Below, in pieces: positions 139 to 25,484 of a stretch of 27,323 bases of DNA; position 1 is the stretch's first letter, and every line of letters begins with the position of its first letter. The position numbers were made by a program, and so were the translations under genes. The DNA lies in IMG/VR virus record IMGVR_UViG_3300031658_000089, positions 1 through 27,323 of that record; one strand, written 5' to 3'. The stretch comes from a virus. The notes beneath the pieces were generated by a model. That model ran no database searches and was not told the DNA's origin. It worked only from the letters and a program-made list of their open reading frames with translations.

Positions 139-200
139 TGTGGGTAGCTCATAAGGCACCCACCTCGGCCCTCACTTGTCAACTTATTTCGACCTATAGC

Positions 201-277
201 TCCCATAGGTTATACCGATGTGAACCCAAGGCCGTCCCATAGGTTATACCGATGTGAACCCAAGGTTATACCGATGT
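201..277. repeat. 34-bp tandem direct repeat, 2 copies plus a partial third
   Basis: A 31-base block starting TCCCATAGGTTATACCGATG occurs at 201-231 and again, identical, at 235-265 (period 34). The core AGGTTATACCGATGT returns once more at 263-277. The copies lie directly left of the 21-bp dyad array. No function can be read from sequence. Perfect conservation of a non-coding unit suggests recent duplication or a protein binding site. Confidence 0.85.
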
Positions 278-279
278 CA

Positions 280-449
280 CCTACGTGGCGTAAGGCGGCA
301 CCTACGTGTCGTAGACGATGACCTACGTTCCGTGGGCGACAGGGGTATCACCTACGTGGCGTAGGGTGGCACCTACGGTCGGTCAGTGGTAACCTACGTC
401 ATGTCGGTGTAGACCTACGCTATGCCAGTGGTGTCCTACGGATCGTAGG
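280..449. repeat. Eight-copy, 21-bp-phased array of CCTACG-N3-CGTAGG dyads
   Basis: CCTACG starts at 280, 301, 322, 351, 372, 393, 414 and 435, so all intervals are exactly 21 bp except one of 29. At 351-365 and 435-449 the hexamer is followed after 3 bp by its perfect reverse complement CGTAGG. The units at 280, 301 and 322 have one mismatch in the right arm, and those at 372, 393 and 414 are more degenerate. A 21-bp period is two helical turns, so dyads would lie on one face of the DNA, as for iterons or cooperative operator arrays. Candidate ligands are the small terminase (pac-like site), a replication initiator or a transcription factor. The ligand is not known. Confidence 0.85.
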
Positions 450-519
450 GGGCGGGGGGTCTATTGGGAACTTCTGTTGAACATTAGTACCCACCAATGT
501 ACAATAAAGGTGGATAATC

Positions 520-670: not shown

Positions 671-709
671 TTGACATCTTCAAGTATATGTGCTATACTA
701 ATACTATAG
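671..709 (+). promoter_or_regulatory. Strong sigma70-type promoter (P1) for the terminase/portal operon
   Basis: The -35 box TTGACA (671-676) is followed after 17 bp by TATACT (694-699), preceded by TG at 691-692 (extended -10). Fourteen bases around the -35 (ATAAAGCTTGACAT) are identical in the promoter at 6944. Just downstream, ACTATAG (703-709) is shared by all three promoters of this window. It resembles the start-site end of T7-family phage RNA polymerase promoters. Transcription toward the small terminase gene (817) is expected. Confidence 0.9.
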
Positions 710-816: not shown

Positions 817-1212
817 ATGTCAGATGAAGAAATAGCCCCTAAAAAGAAAAGAGGTCGGCCCCCTACAAAGTCCATAGAGTCTAAAAAAAGAGGCAATCGT
901 AAAGCACTAGGTCGCCCCAAAGGTGATGCGGCAATCATTAATGAATTTAAAGCTAGAATGCTGGCTAGTCCTAAATCAGAAAAGGTCTTAGAGTCTATCT
1001 TTAATGCCGCCTTAGATGATGATCACAAACATCAGAGTGCTGCTTGGAAGATCGTCATGGATAGAGTCGCCCCTACGGCGGCCTTTGAACAAGATGTCAT
1101 TAAAGGTGGTGGTCGTTCTGCAATTCAAATTAACATAACAGGCATTGGCGAGTCTGCAACTAAGGCTGTACAAACCCCACTTGAAGGAGCATTTACAACG
1201 GATGATGAATAA
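817..1212 (+). CDS. Probable terminase small subunit (DNA recognition)
   Basis: The 131-residue protein is the first gene after promoter P1 and directly precedes the large terminase, the usual place of the small terminase, which binds the packaging site and hands DNA to the motor. The N-terminus is strongly basic with two AT-hook-like motifs, RGRP (residues 12-15) and GRPKG (32-36), suited to minor-groove DNA binding. The middle (about 38-90) is predicted helical and the tail is acidic. The start is set by AAGG at 807-810, six bases before ATG. The call rests mainly on gene order and DNA-binding character, because small terminases diverge quickly. The dyad array at 280-449 is a candidate target. 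Confidence 0.7.
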   Translation: MSDEEIAPKKKRGRPPTKSIESKKRGNRKALGRPKGDAAIINEFKARMLASPKSEKVLESIFNAALDDDHKHQSAAWKIVMDRVAPTAAFEQDVIKGGGRSAIQINITGIGESATKAVQTPLEGAFTTDDE

Positions 1213-1450
1213 TATTTTAGCAGTTCTTATAGTCTTGTTTATGTCTTTAGTCTTAGTCACGGCTAGTGCCGATGAGGTTCTACGGGCTTTTATAGTCCAA
1301 CAAGAGAGTGGTCAACTAAAGGCGTGTTCGGTACTTTCTTACTCCGAAGCCGTTTGTTGGGATATGGTTGGCCCAGCGTTGTCCTGCATCCCAATCACAG
1401 AAACCAACCCGACTTTACTTTGCAACACCATGGAAGTTAAAACCTATTAG
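1202..1450 (+). CDS. Small exported cysteine-rich protein of unknown function
   Basis: The 82-residue product starts with tandem ATGs overlapping the end of the small terminase gene by 11 bp, preceded by AGGAG at 1185-1189 (spacing 12, a little long). Residues 1-23 look like a Sec signal peptide: short polar start, hydrophobic core ILAVLIVLFMSLVLV, then TASA before D24. The mature part of about 59 residues has four cysteines (42, 52, 62, 74) and could form disulfides in the periplasm. There is no lipobox. It overlaps the open frame of the large terminase by up to 83 bp. No family is recognised; superinfection exclusion or envelope interference would be guesses. Confidence 0.55.
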   Translation: MMNNILAVLIVLFMSLVLVTASADEVLRAFIVQQESGQLKACSVLSYSEAVCWDMVGPALSCIPITETNPTLLCNTMEVKTY

Positions 1451-2702
1451 TGATCTAAACATATCCCTCCTCCCGTGGCAACAGGAAGTCTGGGAGGACG
1501 ACACCCGATTTAAGGTGGTGGCTGCTGGACGTAGAACGGGAAAAACCCGCGAGGCTGCTTGGTTGCTCATTACCCGCTGTCTCAACGCCCAATCGGGTTC
1601 CGTGTTCTACGTGGCACCAACCCAAGGGCAAGCAAGGGACATCATGTGGAAGCTTTTGTTAGAGCTTGCCGCGCCTGTAATCAAAGGTGCTCATATAAAC
1701 AACCTAGAGATCACACTGATCAACGGTGCCACCATTAGCCTCAAGGGTGGTGACAGACCAGAGACCATGCGTGGTGTGTCTTTAAAGTACCTAGTGTTGG
1801 ACGAATATGCCGACATTAGACCAGACGTTTGGGAACAGATACTTAGACCAGCCCTTGCAGATCAGAAGGGTGAAGCAATGTTCATTGGAACACCGATGGG
1901 ACGTAACCACTTTTATGATCTATATAAGTATGCAGAGCTAGGTGATGATCCAGACTTTAAGGCATGGCACTTCACAAGCTATGATAACCCAATGTTAGAC
2001 CCATCCGAGATCGAAGCAGCCAAGAAAAGCATGAGTTCATTTGCGTTTAGGCAGGAGTTCATGGCATCCTTTGAAGCAATGGGTTCTGAAATGTTTAAGG
2101 AAGATTGGGTAATCGTTGAAGAAGACCCACAGATCGCGGGTGATTACTATATCGCATGTGACCTTGCCGGTTTTGAAGAGGTCGGTAAAAAGAAACGAAA
2201 GAAGAACAGACTTGATGACTCAGCAATGGCAGTTGTTAAGGTCGGGGAAGAAGGTTGGGTCGTTGAAGATGTTGTCAATGGACGATGGACGCTTGATGAG
2301 ACTGCCCGTAAGATATTTAATTTGGTACGCAAATATAAACCAATATCCATCGGTATTGAGAAGGGTATCTCCAAACAGGCCGTGATGAGTCCCTTAATGG
2401 ATATGATGAAGAAGGAACAGTTCTTCTTTAGAGTTGAAGAATTAACCCACGGTAATCAAAAGAAGACCGACAGAATTATGTGGGCCTTACAAGGTCGCTT
2501 TGAGAATGGCCTAATAAGATTACAAGAAGGAGAGTGGAATATAAAGTTCCTTGACCAGCTTTTTCAGTTCCCAGACCCGCTGACCCATGACGATTTAATA
2601 GACGCACTTGCGTACATCGACCAATTAGCCAAAGTTGCCTACGCTGGCTCCTTTGAAGAGATAGACGACTATGAACCACTTGATGCATTCACGGGATATT
2701 AA
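1368..2702 (+). CDS. terL: Terminase large subunit (packaging ATPase and nuclease)
   Basis: This is the motor that pumps DNA into the prohead and cuts the concatemer. Numbered from the TTG at 1368, the ATPase has a Walker A GRRTGKT (54-60), Walker B VLDEYAD (143-149) with the catalytic glutamate, and coupling motif FIGTPMGRN (172-180). The RNase H-like nuclease has acidic residues D265 (CDLAG), E331 (GIEKG) and D408/D409/D412 (THDDLIDALAY). The start is unclear. TTG at 1368 has no good ribosome binding site and gives an unusually long N-terminus. An ATG at 1430 would suit the family but lies one frame away across an AAAA run (see findings). Function is certain; the first 30 or so residues are not. 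Confidence 0.95.
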   Translation: MAQRCPASQSQKPTRLYFATPWKLKPISDLNISLLPWQQEVWEDDTRFKVVAAGRRTGKTREAAWLLITRCLNAQSGSVFYVAPTQGQARDIMWKLLLELAAPVIKGAHINNLEITLINGATISLKGGDRPETMRGVSLKYLVLDEYADIRPDVWEQILRPALADQKGEAMFIGTPMGRNHFYDLYKYAELGDDPDFKAWHFTSYDNPMLDPSEIEAAKKSMSSFAFRQEFMASFEAMGSEMFKEDWVIVEEDPQIAGDYYIACDLAGFEEVGKKKRKKNRLDDSAMAVVKVGEEGWVVEDVVNGRWTLDETARKIFNLVRKYKPISIGIEKGISKQAVMSPLMDMMKKEQFFFRVEELTHGNQKKTDRIMWALQGRFENGLIRLQEGEWNIKFLDQLFQFPDPLTHDDLIDALAYIDQLAKVAYAGSFEEIDDYEPLDAFTGY

Positions 2703-6799: not shown

Positions 6800-6940
6800 A
6801 TGTACGTAGATGAGAAGAGGGTAAACCAGTTAGCAGAACAAATTAATGCGGCATTTAAGGCGCAAGAATTAGCAATGGAAGAGATACGGGCAGAAATTAA
6901 GGTAATACGTCTACAGCAAACCGGTAAAAAACCTAAATAA
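6800..6940 (+). CDS. Small charged helical protein, unknown function
   Basis: This 46-residue frame starts at ATG 6800, seven bases after GGGAGG (6787-6792), which ends the preceding gene. The translation is one long amphipathic helix rich in K, E and Q (for example VNQLAEQINAAFKAQELAMEE) ending TGKKPK, so it probably forms a coiled coil. It closes the small-protein cassette and its stop touches the second promoter. Reality is supported by the strong ribosome binding site and tight packing. No family is recognised. Confidence 0.65.
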   Translation: MYVDEKRVNQLAEQINAAFKAQELAMEEIRAEIKVIRLQQTGKKPK

Positions 6941-9386: not shown

Positions 9387-12062
9387 ATGAGTATATACAG
9401 AGGTGATGGTGGAGCAGGGGCTTCTAACGACCAAGTAACATTAAACGACTTCATTGTAGTCCGTGATGCAGTAGATGCTGACAGGGTAGCGGCGGCAGCA
9501 AGCAAGACAGCAGCAGAGGCCGAAGTAGCAACAGCCGCAGCTCATGTTGTACTAACCAACCAAGACACTATAGATACAGCAGCCGATCTTGTATTAACAA
9601 ATGCAGATGTTGTATTAACACATGCAGATGTGGTACTAACCCACGCTGATGTAGTACTAACTCACGCTGATGTAGCCTTAACCCATGCTGATGTATTATT
9701 AACAGCGGCATCGGTTGCTACAGTTAACACAGCGCGTAACATACCTTCACGAAACACCACACTGAACGGCGCAGCAGTCAGCCAAGGCAAGTCAACTCGC
9801 TCAGGCTTTAGTACAGCACTATACACAGGTAATGGTACAAATGGTCATGCGATTAACACTGGTATTAATATGTCTAGTGGTGACTTTGGTGGGCTGGTGT
9901 GGATTAAGGATAGAGACTCAACGGCGTTTCACTCACTAGATGATACTGTTAGGGGTGCAGGCAAAACTTTGTTTGCAAATGATCCACGCGCTCCGATAAC
10001 CTACTCAGATCGTCTTACTGCTTTTACCGCCACAGGATTTACGCTTGGTGCTGATTCTGCTACTGGTGTTAACGGTTCAGGAAGTTTACAAGTAGCATGG
10101 TCATGGCAGACAACCAAGAAAACTACTGGCACAACGAATGGTAATAGAGCGTACACAAGTCACTACAACCCTGACCTTGGATTCTCAATTACAAAGTATC
10201 TTGGTAATAATACGCAAGGTCATCAGATACCACATCACCTTGGGGTTATACCTGAGCTTACGATGACTAAAAATCTTGATGCTGGTGTTGGTTGGTTTGT
10301 TCAATCGTCTTTGCTTACCCCCGAATCAGGTACTTATTTAAGCCTTGAAACCAGCGCCGCAGCCGCTAATAGTACCGCTTTTGCTGGCACTGACTTTGGT
10401 TCAGATGTAGTAACGACTCAAACGGGTACGGGAGTTAATTCCAATAACGTTAACTACATTAGATACCACTTTAGCAACGTCGAAGGCGTGTGTAAGATTG
10501 GGGAATATGTAGGTAATGGTACCGAAAGTCAGGTTATAGACTGTGGTTTTGAACCTGCATTTGTATTAATAAAAAGAACAAACTCTGCTACAAGTTGGGT
10601 ACTGTTAGATTCATTAAGACCTGATAAAGACCTCTACCCAGACTTAGCAAGCGTAGATACCTCAGCAGACCGTTCAAATTTTACCAGTAACGGATTTGAT
10701 TTAATAGGAACAAACGCTATATCTAATGCTGCAAATGGTAAGTATCTTTTCATGGCGTATGCAAAATCAGGTACGGGTGGTACCGGAACAAACACGTATC
10801 ATAAAAGTAATTACTCTTATCCGACCGCAGCAGATACATTATCAATTGCACAAAACACTTTAATATCCTTTGCGCGTGGATTTGATGCTTCTGGTCAGTT
10901 AGATACTCAAGAAAACGTAGCTGCGGGTGTAACACACGCATTGGGTACGAACCATGAAAGTAAAAAGTATTACCTCTATAAAAATTTAGCTGGTAGTTAT
11001 GGCGTGAGTGAGTATCGACCATTAGAAGGTATCACCAGAAATGATGCTGACAAGTATGGAAGAGTCAGTCCGTTAAACCCAGCTCACCGAACTACCGCTA
11101 GACACGCTAACCCTACCAGCCCTACAGGTACGGTCTTTGCGAGTGCTTATTACTCGGGTTTTCACCCATATCAAGCGTTTAATGGTGAACACTTACTATC
11201 AAACGCTACTACAACTCGATGGGTAGTAGAAACTACTAGTGCTTCACACATTGGGTACATAGGTACTGAAAAGAGGGTCTTGAAATCTTATCGTCTTATG
11301 GCTCAAACTGTTGCAAGACTTCCCAAACGATTTACAGTTCAAGGATCACACAACGGCACTAGCTGGACAACCATTGACTCATCTTATACGTCTAGTGATT
11401 ATGTAGGTAATGGGGCATTCCTTTGGGGAGACTTACAGTCAACAGCAGGAAATACTGTAGCTTACCTGTACCACCGTATAAACATTACAGCCAACAATGG
11501 TGATGGTACTTTTACGGTCTTAGACGAGTTGGAGTTCAACACAGTATTACCCAGTGACTACTACTTAATTGACGCTGGTAAAGTGTACAACCACGCTGGG
11601 TCTGTTATCAACCGCACGTATCTTGCGGAGTTTAAAACAGACGAAGATGGTGATGTAATCAACAGCACCCTTAAAAACTTACCTGTTGCTAAACAACGGT
11701 TTAATGAGGTTGAAACTCATGGTGACTTAACGGTGCATGGAGATATTAACAATGTTTCTGTTGCGACAGCTTGGGTAACATTTCATGGCAATTTAGCACC
11801 TCCCCTAATCCGATCAAGCTTTAATATTGCTGACATTGTTCAAACTGGGATCGTGGGGGAATACATTTTCTACTTTGAAAAACCTATGAACACAGCTAAC
11901 TATCTCCCAATGACAAGTTCGGGCGGTGCTGTTACCTATATGGGCGAGGCTTATTCCCTTTCGCTTACCCGAAATCATGTGACTATTCGCTTTAGGTCAC
12001 ATAGCGGTACTGCCTTGGCTACAAGTTTGGGGCATGTGGTTTTTTACGGAGGTCAAGAATAA
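9387..12062 (+). CDS. Tail fibre / receptor-binding protein with lectin-like domains
   Basis: From ATG 9387 (AGGAG at 9377-9381, five-base spacing) the product is 891 residues. A frame-open TTG at 9366 lies in the terminator and is rejected. Residues about 8-60 form an Ala-rich helical stalk. Residues 68-109 carry six 7-residue repeats of the VLTHADV type. Residues about 139-465 contain three diverged copies of a beta-domain opening with GNGT or GNNT (YTGNGTNGHAINTG, YLGNNTQGHQIPHHLG, YVGNGTESQVIDCG), as in DUF7483-type marine phage fibres. Residues about 584-720 (HPYQAFNG, then KRFTVQGSHNGTSWTTID) match a discoidin/F5-8C-type sugar-binding fold. A terminal beta-domain follows. It probably binds surface glycans. 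Confidence 0.82.
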   Translation: MSIYRGDGGAGASNDQVTLNDFIVVRDAVDADRVAAAASKTAAEAEVATAAAHVVLTNQDTIDTAADLVLTNADVVLTHADVVLTHADVVLTHADVALTHADVLLTAASVATVNTARNIPSRNTTLNGAAVSQGKSTRSGFSTALYTGNGTNGHAINTGINMSSGDFGGLVWIKDRDSTAFHSLDDTVRGAGKTLFANDPRAPITYSDRLTAFTATGFTLGADSATGVNGSGSLQVAWSWQTTKKTTGTTNGNRAYTSHYNPDLGFSITKYLGNNTQGHQIPHHLGVIPELTMTKNLDAGVGWFVQSSLLTPESGTYLSLETSAAAANSTAFAGTDFGSDVVTTQTGTGVNSNNVNYIRYHFSNVEGVCKIGEYVGNGTESQVIDCGFEPAFVLIKRTNSATSWVLLDSLRPDKDLYPDLASVDTSADRSNFTSNGFDLIGTNAISNAANGKYLFMAYAKSGTGGTGTNTYHKSNYSYPTAADTLSIAQNTLISFARGFDASGQLDTQENVAAGVTHALGTNHESKKYYLYKNLAGSYGVSEYRPLEGITRNDADKYGRVSPLNPAHRTTARHANPTSPTGTVFASAYYSGFHPYQAFNGEHLLSNATTTRWVVETTSASHIGYIGTEKRVLKSYRLMAQTVARLPKRFTVQGSHNGTSWTTIDSSYTSSDYVGNGAFLWGDLQSTAGNTVAYLYHRINITANNGDGTFTVLDELEFNTVLPSDYYLIDAGKVYNHAGSVINRTYLAEFKTDEDGDVINSTLKNLPVAKQRFNEVETHGDLTVHGDINNVSVATAWVTFHGNLAPPLIRSSFNIADIVQTGIVGEYIFYFEKPMNTANYLPMTSSGGAVTYMGEAYSLSLTRNHVTIRFRSHSGTALATSLGHVVFYGGQE
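9588..9713 (+). repeat. Six tandem 21-bp coding repeats (VLTHADV heptads)
   Basis: Units start at 9588, 9609, 9630, 9651, 9672 and 9693. A typical unit is GTAGTACTAACTCACGCTGA plus T. Synonymous changes between units show selection on the peptide rather than fresh duplication. The 7-residue period with V/L at fixed places fits a trimeric coiled-coil stalk whose length could vary between relatives. Confidence 0.9.
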
Positions 12063-21654: not shown

Positions 21655-21824
21655 AGGGCGTTAAGCACTACTTAAAGAACGGCACTGAATACAAAGGTGT
21701 CACTCACAAACATGAGGGTAAACTAATGACAGGCAAAACACACACAGCATCAGCTAAATATTTAATCCATGCGGCTAAACCAACGAGCAAGCCTAAGAAG
21801 AAACGGACTAAGCCTTCTTACTAG
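21651..21824 (+). CDS. Very small basic protein (KGVKHYLKNGTEYKG family)
   Basis: The 57-residue frame starts at ATG 21651 overlapping the previous stop by 4 bp. It reads MKGVKHYLKNGTEYKGVTHK, then GKLMTGKTHTASAKYL and a Lys/Pro-rich tail. The KHYLKxGTxYKG and TGKTHTxSAKxL words are those of a widespread small phage family of unknown role. It is the last + strand gene, and its final 17 bp overlap the end of the opposing HNH gene. Confidence 0.7.
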   Translation: MKGVKHYLKNGTEYKGVTHKHEGKLMTGKTHTASAKYLIHAAKPTSKPKKKRTKPSY

Positions 21825-22422
21825 AGATACCATTCCACAGAGCCATACTGCGGTTGCCTTTAGATAGATTCCATACAGCAGGAACTACTTGAAGGTTAGC
21901 CGCAGAGTTTAAGCCGCAAGCATCGGGGTGTTTCACAGGTACGATATGATCTACGTGCCATATACCACCCATGATTTCCTCGCGTAGTCTAGCTAATATA
22001 AAAGCCTCTTCCAGTGCAAACTTATCATGGTCTGTCATGTGATAGTTAGATACCAAGGCTCTACGCTCGGCATTTCGTCTACCATGCGCTGCCTTGTTAG
22101 CCGTATAATACTTCTTCTGCTGCGCTGCTATATATTCCTTATTATCTAGTCTCCATTTCTTCGCTTGTGCTTTGACGGCTTCCGTATCAGCCTCATAGCG
22201 TTTCTTCTGCTGTGCTAATATGGCTTCCTTATTAGCCTTATAGTATTTCTTCTGCTGTACTGATATGGCTTCCTTATTTTCTAGTTTGTATTTAGAAACC
22301 TGTACTGATATGGCTTCCTTATTAGCCTCATAGTATTTCTTCTGCTGTACTGATATGGCTTCCTTATTAGCCTCATAGTATTTCTTCTTTTGCGCTGCTA
22401 TATCTTCGTCAGTCATTCCCAC
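21808..22422 (-). CDS. HNH endonuclease with a seven-fold 15-residue repeat arm
   Basis: The 204-residue protein starts at GTG 22422 (AGGA eight bases upstream; an ATG two codons later is possible). Residues 15-119 consist of seven 15-residue repeats of the type YYEANKEAISVQQKK, a basic helical arm that probably tracks along DNA. The C-terminal nuclease has WHVDHIVPV (155-163; catalytic D158, H159) and N172, N176, N185, N190 in the spacing of phage HNH enzymes. Its isolated position at the junction of converging modules, after a palindrome, suggests a free-standing homing-type insertion. Confidence 0.85.
   Translation of the reverse strand: MGMTDEDIAAQKKKYYEANKEAISVQQKKYYEANKEAISVQVSKYKLENKEAISVQQKKYYKANKEAILAQQKKRYEADTEAVKAQAKKWRLDNKEYIAAQQKKYYTANKAAHGRRNAERRALVSNYHMTDHDKFALEEAFILARLREEIMGGIWHVDHIVPVKHPDACGLNSAANLQVVPAVWNLSKGNRSMALWNGISSKKA
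22066..22380 (-). repeat. 45-bp tandem coding repeats, seven units
   Basis: Counting leftward from 22380 in steps of 45 bp, each unit encodes 15 residues with the core ANKEAI. Units 1, 2 and 4 are nearly identical at DNA level (GATATGGCTTCCTTATTAGC on the + strand recurs), whereas units 5-7 are more diverged. This gradient suggests recent expansion at the N-terminal side of the HNH protein. Confidence 0.85.
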
Positions 22423-25067: not shown

Positions 25068-25484
25068 CTATCTCCAGCGTGTTTTTAGTAATCTCATCTG
25101 GGCTTCATCAGTACCCACCATTTTAAGTGTTCCCTTGCAATTATCGAAGCTCCAATTAATACCCTTCTTGTTGGGCCAGTAGGATTCGCTAAGTATAATT
25201 GCCGTTGTCTCCGCAAACCTCAAGCAACTCTTGGAACTAAAGACTGCCAACACCGCACGGCTCTTGATGTTGTCTAGGTCTTTCTTGACGTTCTTACTGC
25301 TTGAGGTGTAGCTCTCCCAATCATTTAACTTCCAGCCTGATCCAGCTTTGCGCCAGAATTGCTTACGTCCAATATAGTAGCCACCATCCTTCATGTCAAT
25401 TTGATAGATGAAACCAAGATGATCGTCCATGTTACGACGAAAGTTAAAGCCCGTCTTGTTTACCCAATCAGGTAACTTACTCAT
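25068..25484 (-). CDS. GIY-YIG-like phage endonuclease
   Basis: The 138-residue protein shows GFIYQI (24-29), YYIGRKQFW (36-44) and SYTSSSKNVKKDL (58-70), the motif order of a GIY-YIG nuclease domain, with R40 as candidate catalytic arginine. The first motif is FIY rather than GIY. In T7 the gene near the exonuclease region encodes the junction resolvase gp3. This protein may fill that slot, or be a homing-type enzyme. Its start overlaps the end of the acidic gene by 8 bp. Confidence 0.7.
   Translation of the reverse strand: MSKLPDWVNKTGFNFRRNMDDHLGFIYQIDMKDGGYYIGRKQFWRKAGSGWKLNDWESYTSSSKNVKKDLDNIKSRAVLAVFSSKSCLRFAETTAIILSESYWPNKKGINWSFDNCKGTLKMVGTDEAQMRLLKTRWR

Follow-up and report, generated by a model that had tools for sequence, protein, structure and literature searches.

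The eight-unit CCTACG repeat upstream of the terminase genes of an uncultured phage was found to occupy a slot that is hypervariable among related phages and lies beside a fixed core. Our preferred reading, to which we give a little better than an even chance from sequence comparison, is that the repeat is a swappable docking array, probably for a host protein, that would promote replication and/or early transcription.

Sequence organization of the repeat region

The repeat is carried by IMGVR_UViG_3300031658_000089, an IMG/VR fragment that was analysed over its whole length of 27,323 nt (hereafter, the window) and whose left end falls inside the repeat region. Its packaging-side genes run rightward and comprise a 131-aa small terminase (TerS) candidate beginning at 817, the terminase large subunit (TerL), portal and capsid genes, and the leftward genes at its other end encode a ribonucleotide reductase, a Cas4-type exonuclease and a DNA polymerase. 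A DNA search against cultured phages returned no match to the window, the best TerL matches in cultured phages reached about 43-45% identity over about half the length, and an Rfam search returned no match. Assignment of a host from genome bins was rejected, as the bins belong to unrelated phyla. The full gene order was visible in a relative of about 35 kb with overlapping ends (G001), in which the repeat region is where a leftward arm with ribonucleotide reductase, exonuclease, polymerase, T7-type helicase-primase and small genes adjoins the rightward genes for packaging and structural proteins. Judging by the gene order of such relatives, the window's array probably also lies where the two arms diverge. 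The features of the region are as follows.

78-92, 101-115 and 124-138: three imperfect CCTACG-N3-CGTAGG dyads in 23-bp steps
155-183: left border GGCACCCACCTCGGCCCTCACTTGTCAAC, of the type common to relatives
201-265, plus strand: 34-bp repeat in 1.9 copies, a near-duplicate (CCCATAGGTTATACCGATGTGAACCC)
280-449: main array of eight CCTACG units with graded dyads, perfect at 351-365 and 435-449
448-459, plus strand: G-tract GGGGGCGGGGGG, constant in the group and overlapped by the last perfect dyad
487-513, plus strand: conserved core block GTACCCACCAATGTACAATAAAGGTGG, its anchor (500) lying 52 bp after the G-tract start
671-699, plus strand: sigma70-type promoter TTGACA-17-TATACT with TG before the second hexamer, directed toward the packaging genes
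817-1212, plus strand: putative small terminase, 131 aa, with RGRPP and GRPKGD motifs, so named by position only
1368-2702, plus strand: terminase large subunit, likely start near 1446

The CCTACG units start at 280, 301, 322, 351, 372, 393, 414 and 435, giving successive spacings of 21, 21, 29, 21, 21, 21 and 21 bp, and the periodicity of the array is greatest at a lag of 21 (z 24.5). None of the eight units deviates from CCTACG in its left half-site, although the sequences separating them differ, and the right half-sites match CGTAGG at 5, 5, 5, 6, 3, 4, 2 and 6 of the six positions. CCTACG-N15-CCTACG occurs six times against an expectation of 0.00 (none in 100 dinucleotide shuffles), and the CCTACG-N3-CGTAGG dyad, allowing up to two mismatches, occurs 10 times in 27 kb against 0.71 expected, with nine of the 10 located within 78-449. 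No ORF of 60 or more amino acids was present to the left of position 817. These results bear out a preliminary description of the array as eight units with six 21-bp steps, one 29-bp step and two perfect dyads in a gene-free region. That description had missed the three imperfect dyads, the 34-bp repeat, and the G-tract together with its overlap (from 448) by the last dyad.

Searches of IMG/VR with a three-unit CCTACG pattern yielded no perfect dyad near the array among the at least 120 matches listed, and a paired-dyad pattern yielded two unrelated matches, neither in another phage of the group. The window's slot contained no DnaA boxes and its array no CtrA-type TTAA-N7-TTAA sites.

Constant and variable parts of the slot in related phages

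Relatives were collected via TerL and, independently, via the core block used as a DNA pattern. About 250 contigs of the group displayed a single architecture ahead of the terminase genes, consisting in order of a left border, a repeat array (in many cases with a 10-12 or 21-23 bp phase), the G-tract, a spacer of near-fixed length and the conserved block. A left border of the CTCACAC type was found at 158 of 201 loci compared with two of 222 control regions, and that of one relative (L007, GGCACCCACCTCGGCCCACACTTGTCAAC) is near-identical to the border of the window. The G-tract was present at 199 of 213 loci. The group's block reads GTACCCACC...ACAAAAWAG (also written ...ACAAWA), with GTASYMMCYNAGAYACAAAAWAGRGTCAAAATT summarizing the sequences listed. 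Measured from the start of the G-tract, the block anchor lay at 51-52 bp in nine of 11 records and at 46 in the other two, in which the first part of the G-tract is missing. In the pattern-based set the G-tract lay 30-39 nt before the block in 108 of 116 matches, 60 of them at 32 nt. The block was kept without a G-tract in a relative with 62% TerL identity (L463). In four relatives the GC-skew minimum fell at the G-tract, a signal that diverging transcription would equally give. A promoter equivalent to that at 671-699 was present in most relatives.

The left border and the core block of the window (155-183 and 487-513) have an ACCCACC core in common, in the same orientation. The pair flanks the array and G-tract, similar pairs were noted by eye in relatives, and the two could be copies of one recognition site. 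An exact 14-mer, GACACCCGTGTAAG, occurs twice, 80 bp apart (520-533 and 600-613), in the stretch that separates the core block from the promoter. In a distant relative (L461), a parS-like GTTCCACGTGAAAC lies at about 6840-6856, right of the putative core block.

The sequences filling the slot were typed at the 213 loci with enough sequence to the left. Periodicity of the arrays was mostly well above that of coding controls (largest z 3.9-98 versus 0.9-8.4, the ranges overlapping at the low end), and the commonest best lags were 10-11, followed by 26-29 and 21-23. Strict DnaA boxes were found at 68 loci, numbering at least three at 43 and one or two at 25; two or more TGCAA-N6-TGCCA pairs were found at 52 loci, and 93 loci contained neither. 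DnaA boxes in the same orientation were mostly 11/12, 22/23 or 33 bp apart. The last strict box ended 2-7 nt from the G-tract at 43 of 54 loci, an arrangement resembling that of the window, where the last dyad likewise abuts the G-tract. In three records the slot contained seven, eight and five DnaA boxes, compared with zero, zero and one elsewhere. The closest relative (L005, 97% TerL identity) carried seven TTAA-N7-TTAA sites in 11-bp steps in its slot and none in the remainder of its 7.4 kb. Further fillings included GAGAATCATT repeats and AGTTC-N7-GAACT repeats, and many arrays in the group matched no named regulator.

Several resemblances were noted by eye. The GAGAATCATT arrays resemble Fur boxes, and L234 and L313 have Fur-like palindromes to the left of their arrays (ATGAGAATCATTCTCAT and TTGAGAATCATTCTCAT, respectively), the array of L234 also containing GAGAATCGTTATC repeats. 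The TGCAA-N6-TGCCA arrays (L017, L031, L056 and others) look like rows of leftward sigma54 promoters, with GG-N10-GC on the other strand.

Array type changed at least 22 times on a TerL tree of 56 rows, an approximate figure given that arrays were typed by simple motif counts, and identical TerL proteins were found with different array types. For instance, starting at about the left edge of the G-tract, L073 (DnaA boxes) shares 97% identity with L078 (TGCAA type) across 4.7 kb, and their arrays have nothing alike except a 38-nt match at the border. For 133 pairs sharing stretches of 88% identity or more both to the left and to the right of the array, median array identity was 0.76, and the lowest values, 0.48-0.6, were those seen between unrelated pairs (0.53); the medians for the core and the right flank were 0.92 and 0.97, respectively. 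The pairs are not independent, and these counts describe a pattern rather than probabilities. As far as these comparisons reach, the array is a local hypervariable island.

Candidate binders and alternative explanations

In the preferred reading, a dimeric, sequence-specific DNA-binding protein would dock on the predicted sites of the array, those two helical turns apart facing the same side of the DNA. The hypervariable slot would thereby place this protein beside the fixed core of G-tract and block, at the divergence of the leftward replication and early genes from the rightward packaging and structural genes, and binding there would promote replication initiation and/or early transcription. 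A role as an origin or in early control is the most likely, and the core may itself be the packaging site. The origin reading is suggested by the DnaA boxes that, in some members of the group, adjoin a GC-rich element, and by the position of the slot beside the replication arm and at a GC-skew minimum, bearing in mind that diverging transcription also produces such a minimum. The preliminary description had listed an origin and an operator as alternatives on a par with a packaging signal read by the small terminase; we place both above recognition by that protein.

The docking protein is probably host-made. Array type differs between pairs that are alike on both sides, such as L262 and L263, which points to a binder encoded elsewhere, either by the host or by a phage gene farther away. 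The sites in some relatives' slots are those of DnaA and CtrA, both host proteins. The binder may instead be phage-encoded: the window's left arm, about 8-9 kb to judge from relatives of 35-38 kb, lies beyond the fragment, and small helix-turn-helix proteins occur in the left arms of relatives. A text search of the literature with the two half-sites brought up no paper recognisable, from the text searched, as naming the owner of the CCTACG dyad. A GP88-family protein present in three genomes with DnaA arrays was considered as a covarying binder and rejected, as it is not a known DNA binder.

More tentatively, we consider it possible that lineages exchange docking cassettes in front of one fixed origin or packaging core and so plug into different host DNA-binding proteins, namely DnaA, a CtrA-type protein, a Fur-like protein and the owner of CCTACG-N3-CGTAGG, with replication or early expression tuned to the host or its cell-cycle state.

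An alternative, which we hold to be unlikely, confines the array to transcription: it would act on leftward early promoters, and perhaps on the terminase promoter, as an operator or enhancer and would have no part in replication. This explanation would suit the location of the array between divergent arms in relatives, the strong promoter at 671-699 and the Fur-like palindromes of L234 and L313, and CtrA-controlled phages are known to carry clusters of sites in such gaps (PMC9437464). It does not account for the array stopping at a fixed G-tract, which is not a promoter element, nor for the many relatives that place boxes for a replication initiator, DnaA, right against that G-tract.

Still less probable is a packaging role for core and array together, as a cos or pac region whose dyads would be bound by the small terminase or a helper protein. 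The region lies directly upstream of the terminase genes, the spacing of G-tract and block is near-fixed, the block is kept in the relative with 62% TerL identity, homology between right arms frequently ends at the G-tract or linker, a pattern that a physical end would also give, and a few contigs begin at the G-tract. Conversely, many contigs and the circular genome G001, whose ends overlap elsewhere, run through the site, and contig G004 is interrupted both left and right of the array, which is what assembly breaking at a variable repeat would produce. The core of the TerS candidate is, moreover, nearly invariant among phages with unrelated arrays; L046, L058 and L064, for example, differ in their arrays and hardly at all in this protein. 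The TerS candidate is therefore unlikely as the array binder. The profile search against Pfam gave no match for it, and its structure model (pLDDT 61) was too poor for a fold search. It appears to be a poor reader of the array and could read the core. The proposal of the preliminary description that the small terminase reads the array accordingly finds no support here, the more so as one and the same TerL accompanies different arrays, and its packaging idea is retained for the conserved core only. Contig termini were also considered as a guide to physical ends and are ambiguous, graph breaks at the hypervariable array explaining them equally well.

An unselected satellite, in which slippage and recombination produce changing repeats in a gene-free gap, would fit the hypervariability of the array and the finding of the paired-dyad pattern in no second phage of the group within IMG/VR, yet is very improbable in light of the perfect CCTACG in all eight units despite differing intervening sequence, the recurrence of helical phasing with unrelated sequences, and the recurrence in many lineages of DnaA boxes confined to the slot. 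The earlier preference for cooperative protein binding over neutral satellite DNA gains support from the helical phasing, the dyads and the presence of phased arrays at the corresponding position in relatives, which together are consistent with such binding. The expectation that the array should accompany the same genes in close relatives fails for the literal CCTACG array and holds for the array slot itself, which is conserved.

Comparison with known systems

In the iteron origins of plasmids, direct repeats recur roughly every two helical turns next to a conserved core. The window's repeats are spaced similarly beside a conserved core, but the type of repeat is exchanged between close relatives, and among those left-arm proteins of relatives that were examined, Pfam recognised no Rep initiator; the left arm of the window itself lies outside the fragment. 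Lambda cosN-cosB exemplifies a cos or pac region beside terS. The window resembles such regions in that its terminase genes are preceded by a G-rich element and, a near-fixed distance behind that element, a conserved block, and differs in that the arrays of the group do not covary with the TerS candidate.

Some relatives resemble bacterial oriC in having several DnaA boxes directly adjoining a GC-rich element where the replication arm begins, whereas the window has no DnaA box. The search rule for the basal unwinding system places the DnaA-trio no more than 16 bp from a box (PMC8287927). A trio-like TAGTAG, the only form searched for, was found at 10 of 54 loci with DnaA boxes, 35-45 nt from the box, and hence beyond the spacing of that rule.

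Clusters of CtrA sites in divergent intergenic gaps have been described in vB_BsubS-Delta and other alphaproteobacterial phages, with CtrA binding assayed, and no clustering of DnaA sites was found in the phages of that study (PMC9437464). The window resembles these phages in that a single motif recurs in phase within a gene-free gap flanked by gene blocks that are probably divergent, and its closest relative, L005, carries TTAA-N7-TTAA itself. In contrast, the window's dyad is not a CtrA site, and in the present group the type of site switches between near-identical phages beside a fixed G-tract core. We would place the window's array with the known clusters of host-regulator sites in phage control regions, its new aspect being the exchangeable cassette beside a fixed core.

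If the preferred reading is true, a group of uncultured phages common in metagenomes times its replication via host regulators and a replaceable cassette of sites. The array would then provide a clue to host identity or physiology for phages represented by metagenomes only, and the group would constitute a natural library for how different initiators act on one core. The case also illustrates how a phased repeat next to a terminase gene may be mistaken for a packaging signal if no comparison with relatives is made.

Other features of the window were noted in passing. A 21-bp in-frame coding repeat (VLTHADV) at 9591-9704, in a long gene after the capsid gene, is unrelated to the array. On the minus strand, 25068-25484 encodes a GIY-YIG endonuclease of the SegE family between replication genes, and a 204-aa ORF at 21808-22422 contains repeats of about 15 aa (YEANKEAISVQQKKY; DNA period 45 bp) followed by an HNH-like end.
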